Below the pieces are notes generated by a model that searched no databases, was not told the origin of the DNA, and worked only from the letters and a program-made list of their open reading frames with translations. Positions 3,604 through 43,616 of a stretch of DNA of 43,616 bases are shown here, in pieces. The DNA comes from a virus. A program made the position numbers and the translations under genes. Position 1 is the stretch's first letter. Each line of letters starts with the position of its first letter. Location of the stretch: IMG/VR virus record IMGVR_UViG_3300026557_000082, positions 1-43,616 of that record. The stretch is one strand, 5' to 3'.

Positions 3604-4293
3604 ATGCTTGTTTTGCTCGATTTGTTTTGTGGAGCCGGTGGGGTAGCTCGTGGATATGCTGATGCTGGATTCGAGGTTGTAGGCGTTGACATTGCGCCGC
3701 AAAAGAATTATCCCTACGAATTCCACCAGGGCGATGCTTTGGAGTATCTCGACTCTGTAGACCTCTCTCAATTCAGTGTAATTCACGCCAGCCCTCCCTG
3801 TCAGCGATACACGACGATGTTAGGGAATAATTTAAAAGCTCGGAATGAGCATCCTGATTTTTTGCCTATAACACGTGTTGCATTGCAGAAAACTGGACTT
3901 CCATATATTATTGAAAACGTAGCAGGATCACCTCTCATTAGGGCTATTATGCTTTGCGGTGGAATGTTTGAAGGTTTGCGAGTTTATAGGCATCGATACT
4001 TTGAAAGCAACATTTTTCTCTTTCAGCCACATCACTTTGTTCACAAAGTAAAAGCAGCTCATTCTAGCGCTATTCCGAAAAATGGAGAATTCTGGTCTAT
4101 CGCTGGTCACTTTGGGCAAAAAGATGATGCTCAAAAGGCAATGGGTATAAATTGGATGAAAACTGCAAAAGAGATAGCAAATGCTATCCCGCCCGCTTAT
4201 ACCCATTTTATCGGCTTGCAATTGATAAATTTCTTGGAAGTGGAAAGAGCAGATTGGCAAGCTGAAAACGCCGTGATTATACAGAAAGGATAA
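3604..4293 (+). CDS. Small C5-cytosine DNA methyltransferase
   Basis: The N-terminus has motif I DLFCGAGG, then ASPPCQRYT with catalytic Cys66, and IIENVAGSP with the ENV motif at 104-106. The RHRYFES segment and the C-terminal AIPPAYTHFIG are typical of short phage C5 enzymes. At 229 residues it lacks the long target-recognition domain of bacterial enzymes, so its specificity may be relaxed or set by loops. ATG 3604 lies three bases after the previous stop (TAACGATG). It would transfer methyl from SAM to cytosine in phage DNA, probably against restriction. Confidence 0.88.
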   Translation: MLVLLDLFCGAGGVARGYADAGFEVVGVDIAPQKNYPYEFHQGDALEYLDSVDLSQFSVIHASPPCQRYTTMLGNNLKARNEHPDFLPITRVALQKTGLPYIIENVAGSPLIRAIMLCGGMFEGLRVYRHRYFESNIFLFQPHHFVHKVKAAHSSAIPKNGEFWSIAGHFGQKDDAQKAMGINWMKTAKEIANAIPPAYTHFIGLQLINFLEVERADWQAENAVIIQKG

Positions 4294-4302
4294 CCTGACA
4301 TC

Positions 4303-5763
4303 ATGCCCACATTATCAGCATTATGGGATATAAAATCCCTGATCGAGCACCATGCTAGCATTCAATATGCTAATAAAGGACGCCCGTCAACATCCAATGG
4401 TGTGCAGGAATGGCACTCCAATTGCCCATTCTGCGGGGGAACTGATCGGTTTATCATGCGTCCTGAACTTGGGGATTATTCTTGCGCTATCCGGTCATCG
4501 GGTTGCGGACGCCATGGCGATTGTATTGATTTTTTGAAAGAGTATTGCAGCATGTCACACGCGGAAGCTTGCGAGATACTCCAGATTGAACACAATGCTG
4601 ACTTTGTTCCCTCCAGTCCTCCAGAAACGCGCTACACAGGCAGTGAGCAACCACCAAATGCAAGGTGGATAGAGACAGGCTTTCTACTTGTAGAGCGTGC
4701 GCAAGCTGCACTCTGGAATACTTCAGAGGGACGCGTGATGCTTGACTACCTGCATGGTAGGGGATTGGGCAACGATATTATCAAGAAAAAGAAGATTGGA
4801 TTTATCCCACTCCGATCTGATGGATACTTTTATGAGGACACATTGGAGAATTGGGGACTTGATCCAGATAAGGAAGTAAAGAAATCTGTCAAGGTTGCAA
4901 ATGGCATTTTAATCCCCTGGTTTGAAGGTTCAACACTTTGGAGATTAGGTATAAAGCGTCCTAGTGAAACGCAATCATACGGACAGGTGCTAGGGTCCGG
5001 TGAGGGCCTTTTCAACGTTGGGGAAATCCAATATGATTTTCCGGCCATGATAGTGGAAGGGGAGATTTGCGCAATGTCTGTTGAGCAAGAGGCGGGGGAC
5101 CTGATAGCATGTGTCGCAACAGGATCAACAACAAGAGGACGCTTGAATAAATGGATAGCAGAGTTGGGGCTACCTGTAGCGGAGAAGAATGGATTTGTTC
5201 TCCAAAGTTTTGATGAGGACGACTCGGGCGACGTTGGATCGGAATACTGGATACAAAATCTTAAGCGGTGTATACGCTGGAGTCCGCTCGTTGCCAAGGA
5301 CCCAAACGATATCCTGAGAGGGAAGTTTCTACCAGATACAGAAGAACGTCATTATTCAGGTTATACTCTAAGAGAGTGGGTAGAAGCTGGTATTCATATT
5401 GCCAAGGTGGAGTTTGGGCTATCCCGCCCTTTTGTCCTTCCCCCGCAAGTCGGGGGAATTGAAAGCGTGCCCACTATCCCCCTTGCAAGGGGAAAGACTC
5501 TTGACGAACTAGTGCAAGAGCGACGGAAAGAAAAAGGGCTTCCTCCAATATCCATTCCTCCTTGGTCACAAAAAGATTTGGTAGATTTGGAGAAAGCTTT
5601 TTCAAAAGTTCAAATAGTAGGGCCGGATGTAGATATGAAAGCTTTAGCCATTCGAGAGTATGAGAAATATCATTTAGCTCCTGACATATGCCTCAATAAA
5701 GACTGTCCCTGTCAGGAAGTATGGGGAGATGTGGTATTGAAAAGAACGTTTAAAAAGAAATAA
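4303..5763 (+). CDS. DNA primase with zinc finger and Toprim domain
   Basis: Residues 41-75 hold a CHC2-like zinc finger (CPFCGGTDRF, then YSC and GCGRHGDCIDF). The middle has Toprim features: IVEGEICAM, with the catalytic glutamate, and FDEDDSGD, with paired acidic residues. No Walker A is present, so this is a stand-alone primase rather than a primase-helicase. It would lay RNA primers at the phage fork. The C-terminal third carries two palindromic insertions, at 5438-5458 and 5478-5492, read as LPPQVGG and PLARGK; the region around them is proline-rich and probably a flexible linker. A perfect palindrome follows the stop. Confidence 0.82.
   Translation: MPTLSALWDIKSLIEHHASIQYANKGRPSTSNGVQEWHSNCPFCGGTDRFIMRPELGDYSCAIRSSGCGRHGDCIDFLKEYCSMSHAEACEILQIEHNADFVPSSPPETRYTGSEQPPNARWIETGFLLVERAQAALWNTSEGRVMLDYLHGRGLGNDIIKKKKIGFIPLRSDGYFYEDTLENWGLDPDKEVKKSVKVANGILIPWFEGSTLWRLGIKRPSETQSYGQVLGSGEGLFNVGEIQYDFPAMIVEGEICAMSVEQEAGDLIACVATGSTTRGRLNKWIAELGLPVAEKNGFVLQSFDEDDSGDVGSEYWIQNLKRCIRWSPLVAKDPNDILRGKFLPDTEERHYSGYTLREWVEAGIHIAKVEFGLSRPFVLPPQVGGIESVPTIPLARGKTLDELVQERRKEKGLPPISIPPWSQKDLVDLEKAFSKVQIVGPDVDMKALAIREYEKYHLAPDICLNKDCPCQEVWGDVVLKRTFKKK
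5438..5458. repeat. Dispersed palindrome variant in primase gene
   Basis: TTCCCCC and GGGGGAA arms of seven bases flank GCAAGTC. This is a variant of the dispersed family, read in frame as LPPQVGG. It lies 40 bases before a standard copy. Confidence 0.6.
5478..5492. repeat. Dispersed CCTTGCAAGG palindrome
   Basis: The sequence CCCCCTTGCAAGGGG lies in the 3' part of the primase gene, read as PLARGK, a different frame from most other copies. Confidence 0.75.
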
Positions 5764-39993: not shown

Positions 39994-40164
39994 CTATTTA
40001 CCTTTCTTGGCTTTTGCAACTCTGTTGAGACGCGGATTAGCTTTCTTGGCTTTTGCCGATGCTTTACGCGTGCTGCTTGCGAGAATAGCGCTTGCAGCAC
40101 CTTTTGAGATGCCTTGCTTAGCTGCAATACTAGACGCGGCTTTGTTGAACCCGGGATGCTTCAT
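39994..40164 (-). CDS. Small basic Lys/Ala-rich protein
   Basis: This 56-residue gene begins MKHPGFNKAASSIAAKQG and continues with AILASSTRKASAKAKK and ANPRLNRV. The strong positive charge and Ala/Ser/Lys composition suggest binding to DNA or RNA, perhaps in the capsid. AAGGTG lies five bases upstream of ATG 40164, which overlaps the previous stop as TAATG. Similar short KHPGF-type proteins occur in phages; function unknown. Confidence 0.7.
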   Translation of the reverse strand: MKHPGFNKAASSIAAKQGISKGAASAILASSTRKASAKAKKANPRLNRVAKAKKGK

Positions 40165-40346
40165 TATTTCACCTTCTTTGCTCTAGGGCCATGATGATGT
40201 CTGCCATGACCACGGCCTACGCCTTTCGGTTTAGGTGCTACAGGTTTAGCTACAGCACCAGGAACGCTAGGTTTCTTTGCACGAGGTCCTAGAGGACCAT
40301 GATGGTGTCTCCCATGGCCGCGCCCAACTCCTGTTGATACTGACAT
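40164..40346 (-). CDS. His/Gly/Arg-rich protein with internal duplication
   Basis: ATG 40346 is chosen because AAAGAGGTGA lies upstream. The 60-residue product contains GVGRGHGRHHHGP twice, separated by about 20 Ala/Pro/Lys residues, and each copy is followed by RAKK. The clustered histidines would bind metal ions; the basic tails may bind nucleic acid. It is coupled to the basic protein downstream by TAATG. No family recognised. Confidence 0.65.
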   Translation of the reverse strand: MSVSTGVGRGHGRHHHGPLGPRAKKPSVPGAVAKPVAPKPKGVGRGHGRHHHGPRAKKVK

Positions 40347-40350
40347 ATCG

Positions 40351-40641
40351 TCACCTCTTTCTATCCACTCTTGACCTATCAACAGTTCGGATGATATCTA
40401 GCTCTGCACTTTTTTTCCTCTCAATTGCTTGCATAATCTGATCTGTTTCAACAGGATTCTCCTGAATCCACAGCGCGATTATCTGAATCATCAATTCATG
40501 AGGAATTGCAACCGTTTTAATGGTAAGAGGATCTTTTTGCAGTCTAAGATGTACACCTCCCTTGTTTTTCAACACTTCAGCATTCATTGACGGTTGAAAC
40601 TGCTGATTTGGTTGTTGTGCTAAATTTGGAATTGTTGCCAT
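40351..40641 (-). CDS. Hypothetical protein
   Basis: The 96-residue product starts at ATG 40641 with AAGGAGGG upstream. The N-terminus is Gln/Pro/Asn-rich (NLAQQPNQQFQPS) and the rest helical (PHELMIQIIALWIQENP, IMQAIERKKSAELDIIR). It overlaps the gene upstream by 22 bases. Not recognised. Confidence 0.6.
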   Translation of the reverse strand: MATIPNLAQQPNQQFQPSMNAEVLKNKGGVHLRLQKDPLTIKTVAIPHELMIQIIALWIQENPVETDQIMQAIERKKSAELDIIRTVDRSRVDRKR

Positions 40642-40874
40642 ATTCCCTCCTTACAAATAAAACTTTGTGTATATTGACGACTTTCATGAAATACGGTTAC
40701 TATACGTCTTGTAATTGGTTTCCATGTTACCCAAGACTCTACATTCTCAACTAGGACCTCATTCTTAATCCAAATGTCCAAAATTTCTTCCACAGGTCCT
40801 AGACTTGCAATCCAAAGATGAATGCACTCTGGATAGACTGACAAGCTCCTTTCGATGATTTTGACTTCTGACAT
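40620..40874 (-). CDS. Hypothetical protein, family member 1 of 3
   Basis: ATG 40874 is preferred (GGAAG upstream) over an open frame to 40895. The 84-residue product has LWIASLGPVEEILDIWIKNEVL, strand-like RRIVTVFHES, and a final CKEGIWQQF. The same order (W-I-x-S/K-L, ...DI, V-strands, F...G.W) is found in the next two genes upstream, so the three appear to be a tandem family. Function unknown; a small virion or chaperone protein is possible. Confidence 0.55.
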   Translation of the reverse strand: MSEVKIIERSLSVYPECIHLWIASLGPVEEILDIWIKNEVLVENVESWVTWKPITRRIVTVFHESRQYTQSFICKEGIWQQFQI

Positions 40875-40878
40875 AAAG

Positions 40879-41229
40879 TCACTTCCACAATTCATCTCGA
40901 ATACTATCCATCAAATCAAATGCATCATTATCATCTAGTTCTTTATTTTCTACAACTGTTTCATGTTTGCCTGTATACGCTATATCAGTATTTTCACCAG
41001 CTTTCATCCATTCGCCTTTAAATTGCACAAACCTACAACAATGCTCAAGTGGTGGAATAATAACTTTTACATCTAAATAATTAGTTGAGACAAAGGATTT
41101 ACGCTCTCCATATGACACATAAGGAACAGCTTCTCTCTCTACTGAAAGATCTTGAATATCCTTTACAAGACCTAAACTTTCTATCCACTCTTGCATAAAT
41201 TGAGGCAACACTCTAAGATCAATTGCCAT
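40879..41229 (-). CDS. Hypothetical protein, family member 2 of 3
   Basis: The 116-residue product shows the pattern MQEWIESLGLVKDIQDL, YLDVKVIIPPLEHCCRFVQF, then KGEWMKAG, matching the flanking genes. An acidic tail (ELDDNDAFDLMDSI) is added. It follows its upstream neighbour by one base. There is no known domain. Confidence 0.6.
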   Translation of the reverse strand: MAIDLRVLPQFMQEWIESLGLVKDIQDLSVEREAVPYVSYGERKSFVSTNYLDVKVIIPPLEHCCRFVQFKGEWMKAGENTDIAYTGKHETVVENKELDDNDAFDLMDSIRDELWK

Positions 41230-41230
41230 A

Positions 41231-41575
41231 TTATTTCCTCTCCTTTCGCCCTATCGGAGATACATCATATTCATCTTTCTTTTTCCAACTTCCATCATTT
41301 AGTCGTTCAAAACGAGCAAGATGCTTCTCTAGCTGAATATTAGCGACTGTAACATCTGCATGTTTGCCATATCTCCATTTTGCATATTTCTTCCCGTCCT
41401 CACCTATTGTATATCCATCTTTAAGTGTTTCATATCGTATATGAAAACTAATAATATCCTCTCGTTTCCACTTTAAATCCTTCTCTATCCAAGTCTTAAA
41501 TCCTAGAGGAAATGACTCATATGCCTCTTCTGATATTGGAGCTTTCTGATTATCTACAATTGGATTATCACTCAC
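41231..41575 (-). CDS. Hypothetical protein, family member 3 of 3
   Basis: The 114-residue product has FKTWIEKDLKWKREDIISFHIRYE, VTVANIQLEKHLARFERL, then DGSWKKK, the same arrangement as the next two genes. The C-terminus is basic. ATG 41575 overlaps the portal C-terminal ORF stop by ATGA. The placement of three copies next to the portal suggests virion association. Confidence 0.6.
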   Translation of the reverse strand: MSDNPIVDNQKAPISEEAYESFPLGFKTWIEKDLKWKREDIISFHIRYETLKDGYTIGEDGKKYAKWRYGKHADVTVANIQLEKHLARFERLNDGSWKKKDEYDVSPIGRKERK

Positions 41576-41895
41576 TGTTGTCCTCCCTGTGGGATTCCAC
41601 CTTGCAAGGTGGATTGTTGTGTTCCAGGCGGTTGTCCTGGAAGCGGTGCAACTCCTGGTTCAGAAGGTGGGAGCACGCCCTGTTGCATGAGTGGGTTATT
41701 TGCTATCATTTGAGCATCTTCCGCATTGCTTAAAGCCATTTCTTCATCGGGATCATAGCCCAGTTTACGCATGATTGAGTTGTTCGATACTCCAATGCTT
41801 TTGAGCAAGATATATGCCTGTACTGTTGGTAAATCATCAACTGGGAGCGGACTTTCCCATGTTACCGTTATATCGATATCGCTACTATCACTCAT
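41572..41895 (-). CDS. Portal protein C-terminal fragment as separate ORF
   Basis: The 107-residue product begins with DIDITVTWESPLPVDDL, then VQAYILLKSIGVSNNSIMRKLGYDPDEE. This is the pattern of the C-terminal end of SPP1-like portal proteins, normally fused to the wing/stem domain. It has its own ribosome site (AAGGAG before ATG 41895), so it is translated separately. The Pro/Gln/Gly-rich tail contains a palindrome read as STLQGG. The rest of the portal lies at 42528 and beyond, with two small genes between. Confidence 0.7.
   Translation of the reverse strand: MSDSSDIDITVTWESPLPVDDLPTVQAYILLKSIGVSNNSIMRKLGYDPDEEMALSNAEDAQMIANNPLMQQGVLPPSEPGVAPLPGQPPGTQQSTLQGGIPQGGQQ
41597..41612. repeat. 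Perfect 16-base dispersed palindrome
   Basis: CCACCTTGCAAGGTGG lies near the 3' end of the portal C-terminal ORF, read as STLQGG on the minus strand. Confidence 0.8.
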
Positions 41896-42155
41896 GACGA
41901 CTCCTTATATTTCTCATGCTCAATAATCATTTCAGCAGGCATAACAGGAGAATGAATACTTAAATGAATCAAAAAAAAGTCATAATCAAGTGTAGTATTT
42001 GGAACTTCATCCGATCTCACGCGTAAAATAGAATCCTTAATCTCTTCTACTTTACCAAGTACCTTATAAGAACGATATGAAGGTCCTCCTTCCATATAAT
42101 CACAATAAACTCTCCTGCCAACAGGAAAGTACCGCTCTACCTCATCTTTTTCCAT
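41892..42155 (-). CDS. Hypothetical protein inserted between portal parts
   Basis: The 87-residue product has an SH3-like strand pattern (GRRVYCDYMEGGPSYRSYKVLGKVEEI in pieces, then SILRVRSDEV). AAAGGAG lies seven bases upstream of ATG 42155. It overlaps the portal C-terminal ORF by ATGA, so all are co-translated. Not recognised. Confidence 0.6.
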   Translation of the reverse strand: MEKDEVERYFPVGRRVYCDYMEGGPSYRSYKVLGKVEEIKDSILRVRSDEVPNTTLDYDFFLIHLSIHSPVMPAEMIIEHEKYKESS

Positions 42156-42159
42156 ATTA

Positions 42160-42531
42160 TTACTCCTTTGGCAATTCGGTCATATCAGGAATACGTCCTA
42201 TAGCTTCTTCAAAACCTAACACATCTAAATCTTTAGGATCAGCTTGCGCATGTTTTACTAAGTCGTATGCCCGACGTGCTATAATATCTTGCCATGCCTC
42301 ACGCCAATGCTCAAGATATGTATCAATATATATCCCATCTACATTATCCATCTCATCTAACAACAACTTAGCAAAACCTTGAAATTGTGTATCTCTTGTG
42401 TTGTCACTCATTACATTCTCTCTTTCCTCTGAGCACTTACACCATTGATGAGCAAAAAGAAGTGCAGACCCATTGTCTATACCAACCATTGTAAACTTAT
42501 TGCATCTATCACAACGCTCTACATTTCTCAT
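42160..42531 (-). CDS. Hypothetical zinc-binding protein inserted between portal parts
   Basis: The 123-residue frame starts at ATG 42531, overlapping the portal stop by ATGA. The N-terminus has CDRCNKF and, 24 residues on, CKC, a probable zinc site. A helical domain follows (FAKLLLDEMDNVDGIYIDTYL, EEAIGRIPDM). An internal ATG at 42411 has a good GAAAGAGAG site, so a second, shorter product without the zinc site is possible. Function unknown. Confidence 0.6.
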   Translation of the reverse strand: MRNVERCDRCNKFTMVGIDNGSALLFAHQWCKCSEERENVMSDNTRDTQFQGFAKLLLDEMDNVDGIYIDTYLEHWREAWQDIIARRAYDLVKHAQADPKDLDVLGFEEAIGRIPDMTELPKE

Positions 42532-43616
42532 GCTGCACTCTCGCTTGCACTGCTTTTCATGTTATTCAATACCAATAACGCTTTACTTACTTCGATTATC
42601 AACTCTCCATATGTGCAACGTTTCTTGTCAGTCTTTTTGAGCAATGGCCCGTAGAGCATTTCGATTGCTATGCCAGTGATGCCACGAGGAAGAATATCAA
42701 CGCGTCCGGTAGCCACACCAGGCACACCCGCTTGCTCATCCATATCAGATCGGAGATTTGCTGCAAAGGCAAGCAAAGCGGTTATATTGCTCTGCATAGC
42801 TACTGACATGATTTTCTGGTCAGGCAGTGGCAACTGGATAATCTTGCCGGGATCGACGTGTAACGTGCCCTCACCAGTGCCTGGTGCGTAGAGGATGCGC
42901 CCAATCTTCTCAGTGACGTTGATGTTGCTTTGCACAAAATTGAGGCTATTATTCAATCCGATCAAGTCATCGGTCACATCGGGATATCCCCAGAAGCTAT
43001 TCGGCCTCGGCAAGTTCTGACACGAAAATATTGGCGAGAATGGATATGGCCATATGTATGGATCGCCTGAAGGTACCCAACTGCCATTCTTCGGTTGCAT
43101 GCCAGCTTGTGCAACTTGCGTCCAGTGTTGTATCTGCCAAGTAACATCAGAGTCCAGCCCGTCCGCATCCTCATCTTCATAGCTGAAAGGATCTTCATCG
43201 ATTGGATCTACGCGTGAGATCTCCTCACGATAGTACACACGTTGTGGCTTGCCAGCCGCGTCCTTCTCATCACATGAATACTCCAAGCAATACAAGAGAA
43301 TCGTCTGGACGTCTTGTGGGGCTGTTTTGACACTCACAATGGCCGGATCTATCTCGATTAAACGAAACTTGCCTTGCTTGCGACCTGGAACTATTCGGAG
43401 GAACGCGTTGCCAGCCATCGCCCCATTTAACCCAAGACGGAGCAGGAATGGAATGCGCGTCTCTTTACGTCCCCAGCAATCATCCAAGAAAGTTTGCGCC
43501 TCGTCGGGGGAACCTTCTGCAACGGTGATTTGAAGCTCTTTCCCAAATAAAAATTCATTTGATGTATTGACAACTTCAACGACACGATTAGAAATAACAT
43601 TAAAATCGGGCTCATT
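42528..43616 (-). CDS. Portal protein, main part (5' end beyond window)
   Basis: The frame is open to the right edge of the window, so the N-terminus is missing. The visible 362 residues include RLGLNGAMAGNAFLRIVP, YPFSPIFSCQNLPRPNSFWGYPDVTDDLIGLN in sections, EQAGVPGVATGR, and LPRGITGIAIEMLYGPLLKKTDKK, matching SPP1-like (Gp6) portal proteins. It stops after KALLVLNNM, just where the usual wing/crown segment would follow; that segment appears in the ORF at 41572-41895. Portal forms the DNA gate of the head. Confidence 0.85.
   Translation of the reverse strand, partial: NEPDFNVISNRVVEVVNTSNEFLFGKELQITVAEGSPDEAQTFLDDCWGRKETRIPFLLRLGLNGAMAGNAFLRIVPGRKQGKFRLIEIDPAIVSVKTAPQDVQTILLYCLEYSCDEKDAAGKPQRVYYREEISRVDPIDEDPFSYEDEDADGLDSDVTWQIQHWTQVAQAGMQPKNGSWVPSGDPYIWPYPFSPIFSCQNLPRPNSFWGYPDVTDDLIGLNNSLNFVQSNINVTEKIGRILYAPGTGEGTLHVDPGKIIQLPLPDQKIMSVAMQSNITALLAFAANLRSDMDEQAGVPGVATGRVDILPRGITGIAIEMLYGPLLKKTDKKRCTYGELIIEVSKALLVLNNMKSSASESAA

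Follow-up and report, generated by a model that had tools for sequence, protein, structure and literature searches.

The question raised by this locus is whether the portal, the ring for DNA entry into and exit from the virus head, which is treated as a single-protein ring, can be supplied as two polypeptides. In the window, which is the whole stretch of viral DNA analyzed here (43,616 nucleotides, IMG/VR record IMGVR_UViG_3300026557_000082), the portal gene is observed as two ORFs on the minus strand. ORF1 (42528-43616), identified by phrog_64, by an N-part profile described below and by its relatives in other contigs, encodes the portal body with wing, stem, clip and long wing helix, and it lacks ~46 residues at the N-terminus because the contig end cuts the gene. 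Its protein ends in KALLVLNNMKSSASESAA, and related portals continue past that point. ORF2 (41572-41895), supported by profiles, pN/pS and tree, encodes a protein of 107 aa that starts with MSDSSDIDITVTWESPLP and is predicted to hold the last wing strand, a three-helix crown and a disordered tail. The ORF1 stop and the ORF2 start are 632 nt apart, in agreement with the original prediction of a segment ORF about 630 bases downstream, and two small genes on the same strand are present between them, as had also been predicted. Inserted gene 1 (42160-42531, 123 aa), which has homologues in relatives, carries the predicted zinc motif (CxxC...CxC), and inserted gene 2 (41892-42155, 87 aa), of no recognized family, is supported by its open frame and a strong Shine-Dalgarno site. 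The junctions of ORF1 with the 123-aa gene, of the 87-aa gene with ORF2 and of ORF2 with the next gene are 4-nt overlaps (ATGA or GTGA). Genes for scaffold and major capsid protein lie downstream of the portal in the window, and terminase genes, whose region is absent from the window itself, lie upstream of the portal in two relatives (L071 and L072), in line with the SPP1-like order of terminase, portal, scaffold and capsid. Genes for tape-measure, capsid and scaffold proteins mark the contig as siphovirus-type, and two scans of bacterial genomes for a host found no relative.

Both ORFs matched portal families in the profile search that had been proposed to check the split. Among the PHROGs, ORF1 matched portal phrog_64 (profile positions 119-424 of 547, E 5e-8) and ORF2 matched portal phrog_104 (positions 412-500 of 550, E 4e-5), and Pfam SPP1_portal (PF05133) matched both below its cut-off, with ORF2 at the C-terminal end of that profile (356-411 of 416, E 0.003). 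As controls, an N-part and a C-part profile were built from 42 intact relatives only, cut at the junction. Of the 769 ORFs in the six frames of the window, the C-part profile matched only ORF2 (positions 2-96 of 99, E 1.2e-32), and the N-part profile matched only ORF1 (E 6e-150), reaching its last position (388 of 388), while the intact-portal profiles gave 0 matches in 15,380 shuffled ORFs. These controls, together with the PHROGs calls on both ORFs, indicate that the split is real and far beyond chance. On an intact relative of 515 residues, the two halves map to residues 53-412 and 406-512, being complementary and barely overlapping, and the coverage by the two pieces is similarly complementary in six other split contigs. 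ORF2 was confirmed to be the C-terminal piece absent from ORF1; neither a lack of portal similarity in the 107-residue ORF nor a complete C-terminal domain in the main ORF, either of which would have refuted the prediction, was found. The rule of one polypeptide per ring subunit is broken at the gene level in the window and the six other contigs, each of which has two ORFs. A sequence search of solved structures gave no useful match, and Tblastn of ORF2 across phage records gave none.

Searches of viral contigs brought the number of split phages to seven including the window, the others being 3300005534_000027 (L004/L071), 3300027986_000051 (L007/L075), 3300012208_000004 (L022/L072), 3300027512_000008 (L006/L073), 3300007788_000014 (L023/L035) and 3300023213_000085 (L005/L074), among which L071 and L075, and likewise L073 and L035, are near-copies. 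An uninterrupted single portal ORF spans the same region in ~75 related contigs. All contigs are metagenomic and possibly incomplete, and the reliance on metagenomic data alone is the point in favor of an artefact of sequencing or assembly, or of a pseudogene in decay; such an origin is very unlikely, given that the split recurs in seven contigs, which come from several separate metagenomes and have differing insert sets as well as an insert-free form, and that, as described below, purifying selection acts on both halves and new ribosome sites are present at ORF2. The label "soil-type" for these phages is a reading of metagenome numbers only and is untested.

In the tree of the N part (ORF1), the split phages form a clade with support of 100/100, which also takes in a truncated contig (L076) of undetermined split state, and the insert-free L074 is nested in this clade as the sister to the window (100/94). 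In the tree of the C part (ORF2), which was built on few columns, the split ORF2s also form one clade (99/95), and the closest intact relatives (L082, L089 and L101/L062) are identical in both trees. Because both half-trees give the split phages the same intact sister group, a single fission that was then co-inherited by the split phages is likely. No second or intact portal copy was found in the nine contigs searched, including split contigs, which are, however, fragments. The alternatives that ORF2 is a paralogue or an exchangeable crown, both raised in the original prediction, were rejected, the former by the trees and the absence of an intact copy from any of the split contigs, within the limits of such fragments, and the latter, a crown imported from elsewhere, by the agreement of the ORF2 tree with the ORF1 tree.

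To locate the cut in the fold, we used an AlphaFold2 model of an intact relative, L078 (pLDDT 84, pTM 0.78), on which the split halves were positioned by alignment, without a fold prediction of ORF1 itself. This model shows the wing, stem, clip and crown of a portal fold, and among solved structures it is closest to the SaPI1/80alpha portal (Z 27.6) and SPP1 gp6 (Z 26.9). The junction, Met408, is inside a loop (406-413) that is preceded by a long helix (378-405) and followed by a strand (414-417), crown helices (426-438, 443-449 and 454-473) and a disordered tail. In the 80alpha portal, the wing extends up to residue 431 and the crown consists of three helices at 432-480 (PMC10541612). From the model and these domain borders, ORF2 is predicted to represent the last wing strand, the entire crown and the tail, and the model places the cut in the loop that separates the last long wing helix from the final wing strand and the three-helix crown. 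When modeled alone, ORF2 was predicted with low confidence (pLDDT 60) as three helices with the strand missing, which is as expected for a partner-dependent piece. This is only weak evidence, and isolated ORF2 may fail to fold without its partner.

The pN/pS values were 0.19-0.31 for ORF1 and 0.23-0.33 for ORF2 among the split phages, similar to those of the scaffold gene (0.23-0.29), and the values for inserted gene 1 (0.46-0.71) were above those of the portal halves. For ORF2 of the window compared with the other split phages, the range was 0.23-0.30. All are rough, with synonymous sites near saturation. Judging from these ratios, both ORF1 and ORF2 are under purifying selection. The main rival explanation to be weighed here is that ORF1 works as a portal without a crown and that ORF2 has been re-used as a separate head or assembly protein, not as a crown on the portal. 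Crownless portals do exist in phi29 and Andhra (PMC10541612), and ORF2 is equipped with a start and a ribosome site of its own. We nevertheless consider this unlikely, since the constraint on ORF2 equals that on ORF1 and since ORF2 retains both the stretch modeled as the final wing strand in the intact relative and the residues that do not vary among the aligned intact portals, such as W13, P16, P18, D21, L22 and Q26 and, further on, G46, D48, P49, E51 and E52.

The translation start of ORF2 was examined by comparison with intact relatives. The window has a Shine-Dalgarno site, AAGGAG, at 41901-41906 (minus strand; anti-SD duplex -8.8 kcal/mol), consistent with the ribosome site originally ascribed to this ORF, and such sites were observed at all of the split ORF2 starts tested (5/5; -7.4 to -8.9 kcal/mol), whereas no comparable site was present at the same position in 43 distinct intact relatives (mean -1.8, best -6.0). 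Met is found at the ORF2-start codon in 22 of the 43 intact portals (LNxM|SxDIDI), but without a ribosome site, and an internal start already in use in intact relatives was therefore rejected. The in-frame Met and the acquired ribosome site together suggest a plausible route of fission, in which a pre-existing in-frame Met codon was used and a ribosome site was gained, the order of events being inferred.

It could also be that splicing, of RNA or of protein, or a frameshift or hop of the ribosome joins the halves into one chain ahead of assembly. Phage genes do get fragmented by introns, the portal genes of Jug phages being described as fragmented (PMC12363816), and the two ORFs of L005/L074, which are in different frames, share 8 nt. 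This same overlap leaves an intron no space in L005/L074, and in the other split phages, the halves are separated by 370-630 nt with coding genes. A group I or II intron was rejected, as no Rfam match was obtained at gathering or relaxed thresholds in the window and five split-phage loci, and a homing endonuclease split was rejected, as no Pfam endonuclease was found in any inserted gene; both absences count against rejoining as well. In addition, ~10 residues of ORF1 and ~5 residues of ORF2 past the junction are too few for split inteins, and ORF2 has its own ribosome site. Rejoining is, thus, highly improbable.

As for the inserted genes, no significant Pfam or PHROG family was found for either. 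Inserted gene 1, the start of which overlaps the ORF1 stop (ATGA), belongs to a cargo family characterized by 'RDTQFQGFA...ARRAYD...PDMTELPKE', and carries its CxxC...CxC motif in an N-terminal extension of 40 aa missing from aligned relatives; inserted gene 2 has no counterpart at this site in relatives. The RDTQFQGFA family provides the first insert in the window, L004/L071 and L022/L072 and is also found downstream of the intact portals of L085, L087, L088, L112 and L037. Similarly, a small zinc-type family (CxCG...WCQxC) is located inside the split in L035/L073 (L035 510-695) and downstream of ORF2 in L071 (8179-8397), and its gene begins at the intact portal stop codon in L061, L111, L123, L080, L098 and L134. 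These positions in intact relatives indicate that a cargo zone normally begins at the portal stop and here begins at the ORF1 stop, with the crown gene inside it. The cargo was observed to turn over: L074 has no insert, L071 has a single one, and the window, L072 and L035/L073 each have a pair, the pairs being three different sets. Because L074 is split without any insert, the inserts are not required for the split, and the original idea that the two inserted genes simply caused it does not hold. The nested position of L074 in the split clade implies either that the insert was lost in L074 or that the others gained theirs separately. The suggestion that the inserts are morons is supported in part by their presence and absence among split relatives. 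It remains unproven in the strict sense, since promoter-like and terminator-like sites at the locus were no more frequent than by chance, the host promoter type being unknown and most junctions being 4-nt overlaps.

After ORF2, the cargo zone continues with three paralogous small genes (40620-41575, minus strand), recognized by family clustering and profile search. These 'WIxxLG' paralogues (41231-41575, 40879-41229 and 40620-40895, minus strand; 114, 116 and 91 aa) belong to a family present in one to three copies per phage directly after the crown or portal gene.

The explanation that we consider probable, for which transcript, protein and structure data are lacking, is that ORF1 and ORF2 are made separately and reassemble into the ring. 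The portal gene of this clade would have been cut by a fixed fission in the loop between wing helix and wing strand, leaving ORF1 as the portal body and ORF2 as the strand, three-helix crown and tail. Translation of each half would begin at its own start within a single densely packed run of genes, and the resulting chains would join non-covalently into an ordinary portal ring, the wing sheet of which is completed by the ORF2 strand. The gap between the halves would have joined the cargo zone, where small genes now arrive and leave. The split, its conservation and tree position, the ribosome sites and the cargo turnover are established from the sequences, and the production of both proteins and their joint assembly in the virion are inferred. 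The division of the portal into two ORFs, as put forward in the original prediction, is well supported: the halves complement each other, have no second copy in the contig, evolve under purifying selection and take the same place in the trees. It is a more speculative possibility, to which we give little weight, that the crown is an independently supplied portal part, possibly sub-stoichiometric or added late, with an occupancy tunable by separate translation. If so, DNA-fill sensing or scaffold contact could be tuned with crown occupancy, and the packaging motor as a whole would consist of modules that are each made separately, the terminase being split too.

The profiles of both halves and the predicted fold of intact relatives resemble SPP1 gp6 and the 80alpha/SaPI1 portal (PF05133, phrog_64 and phrog_104), as does the position close to the scaffold and major capsid genes. 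SPP1 gp6-type portals are, however, a single chain with wing, stem, clip and crown, whereas here the last wing strand and the crown have their own gene, with cargo between. Genes in pieces are known in T4-like phages, such as Aeh1 nrdA split by mobE, the T4 topoisomerase split by mobA and gene 43 of phage 25/44RR, and fission is well described for phage enzymes, the halves of which are still functional (PMC2988022). Our locus resembles these in that one gene is kept as two, the products being known (nrdA and gene 43) or thought to reassemble. It differs in that those are enzymes split mostly by homing endonucleases, whereas the product here is a structural protein that forms a ring, no endonuclease was seen and one relative is insert-free. 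Jug phages, whose genomes are rich in introns (PMC12363816), and crAss-like phages (PMC7886860) likewise have essential genes as separate ORFs; there, the fragmentation is usually due to group I introns or inteins and one chain is restored by splicing, whereas no intron or intein was seen here. The likeness to phi29 and Andhra (PMC10541612) is that the crown is a variable portal end, although it is absent from them and is here kept under selection as a separate gene. Among the open-access papers searched, subscription papers being outside the search, none was found to describe a portal whose crown has a gene of its own. In this clade, the gene in pieces encodes a structural protein that forms a ring, neither an endonuclease nor an intron was seen and an insert-free relative is known, and cargo genes fill the newly formed gap. 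Furthermore, the removal or swapping of one small gene would test crown function with the body untouched.

The terminase large subunit of these phages is also encoded by two ORFs, an ATPase (phrog_7579; Pfam Terminase_6N) and a nuclease (Terminase_6C, above the cut-off in L085 and weak in L071). The pair lies at 4064-5631 in L071 (ATPase ORF 4064-4855, nuclease ORF ending at 5631) and at 1413-3016 in L072, with an ATGA overlap in both, and, among others, at 3901-5354 in L085 and 3658-5207 in L101. The halves usually overlap, with a gap of 150-265 nt in L096, L018 and L120, and this split is wider than that of the portal, being common to many relatives with intact portals.

Two small genes in the window were also observed. 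One (40164-40382, minus strand) encodes a His/Gly-rich protein with repeated 'GVGRGHGRHHHGP' units, which is conserved in L071, L035 and L074 and is possibly a metal binder. The other (39994-40164, minus strand), near the scaffold gene, encodes a Lys-rich 56-aa protein (KHPGFNKAASSIAAKQGISKGAASAILASSTRKAS...) that is conserved in most of the split phages and in the distant L127.
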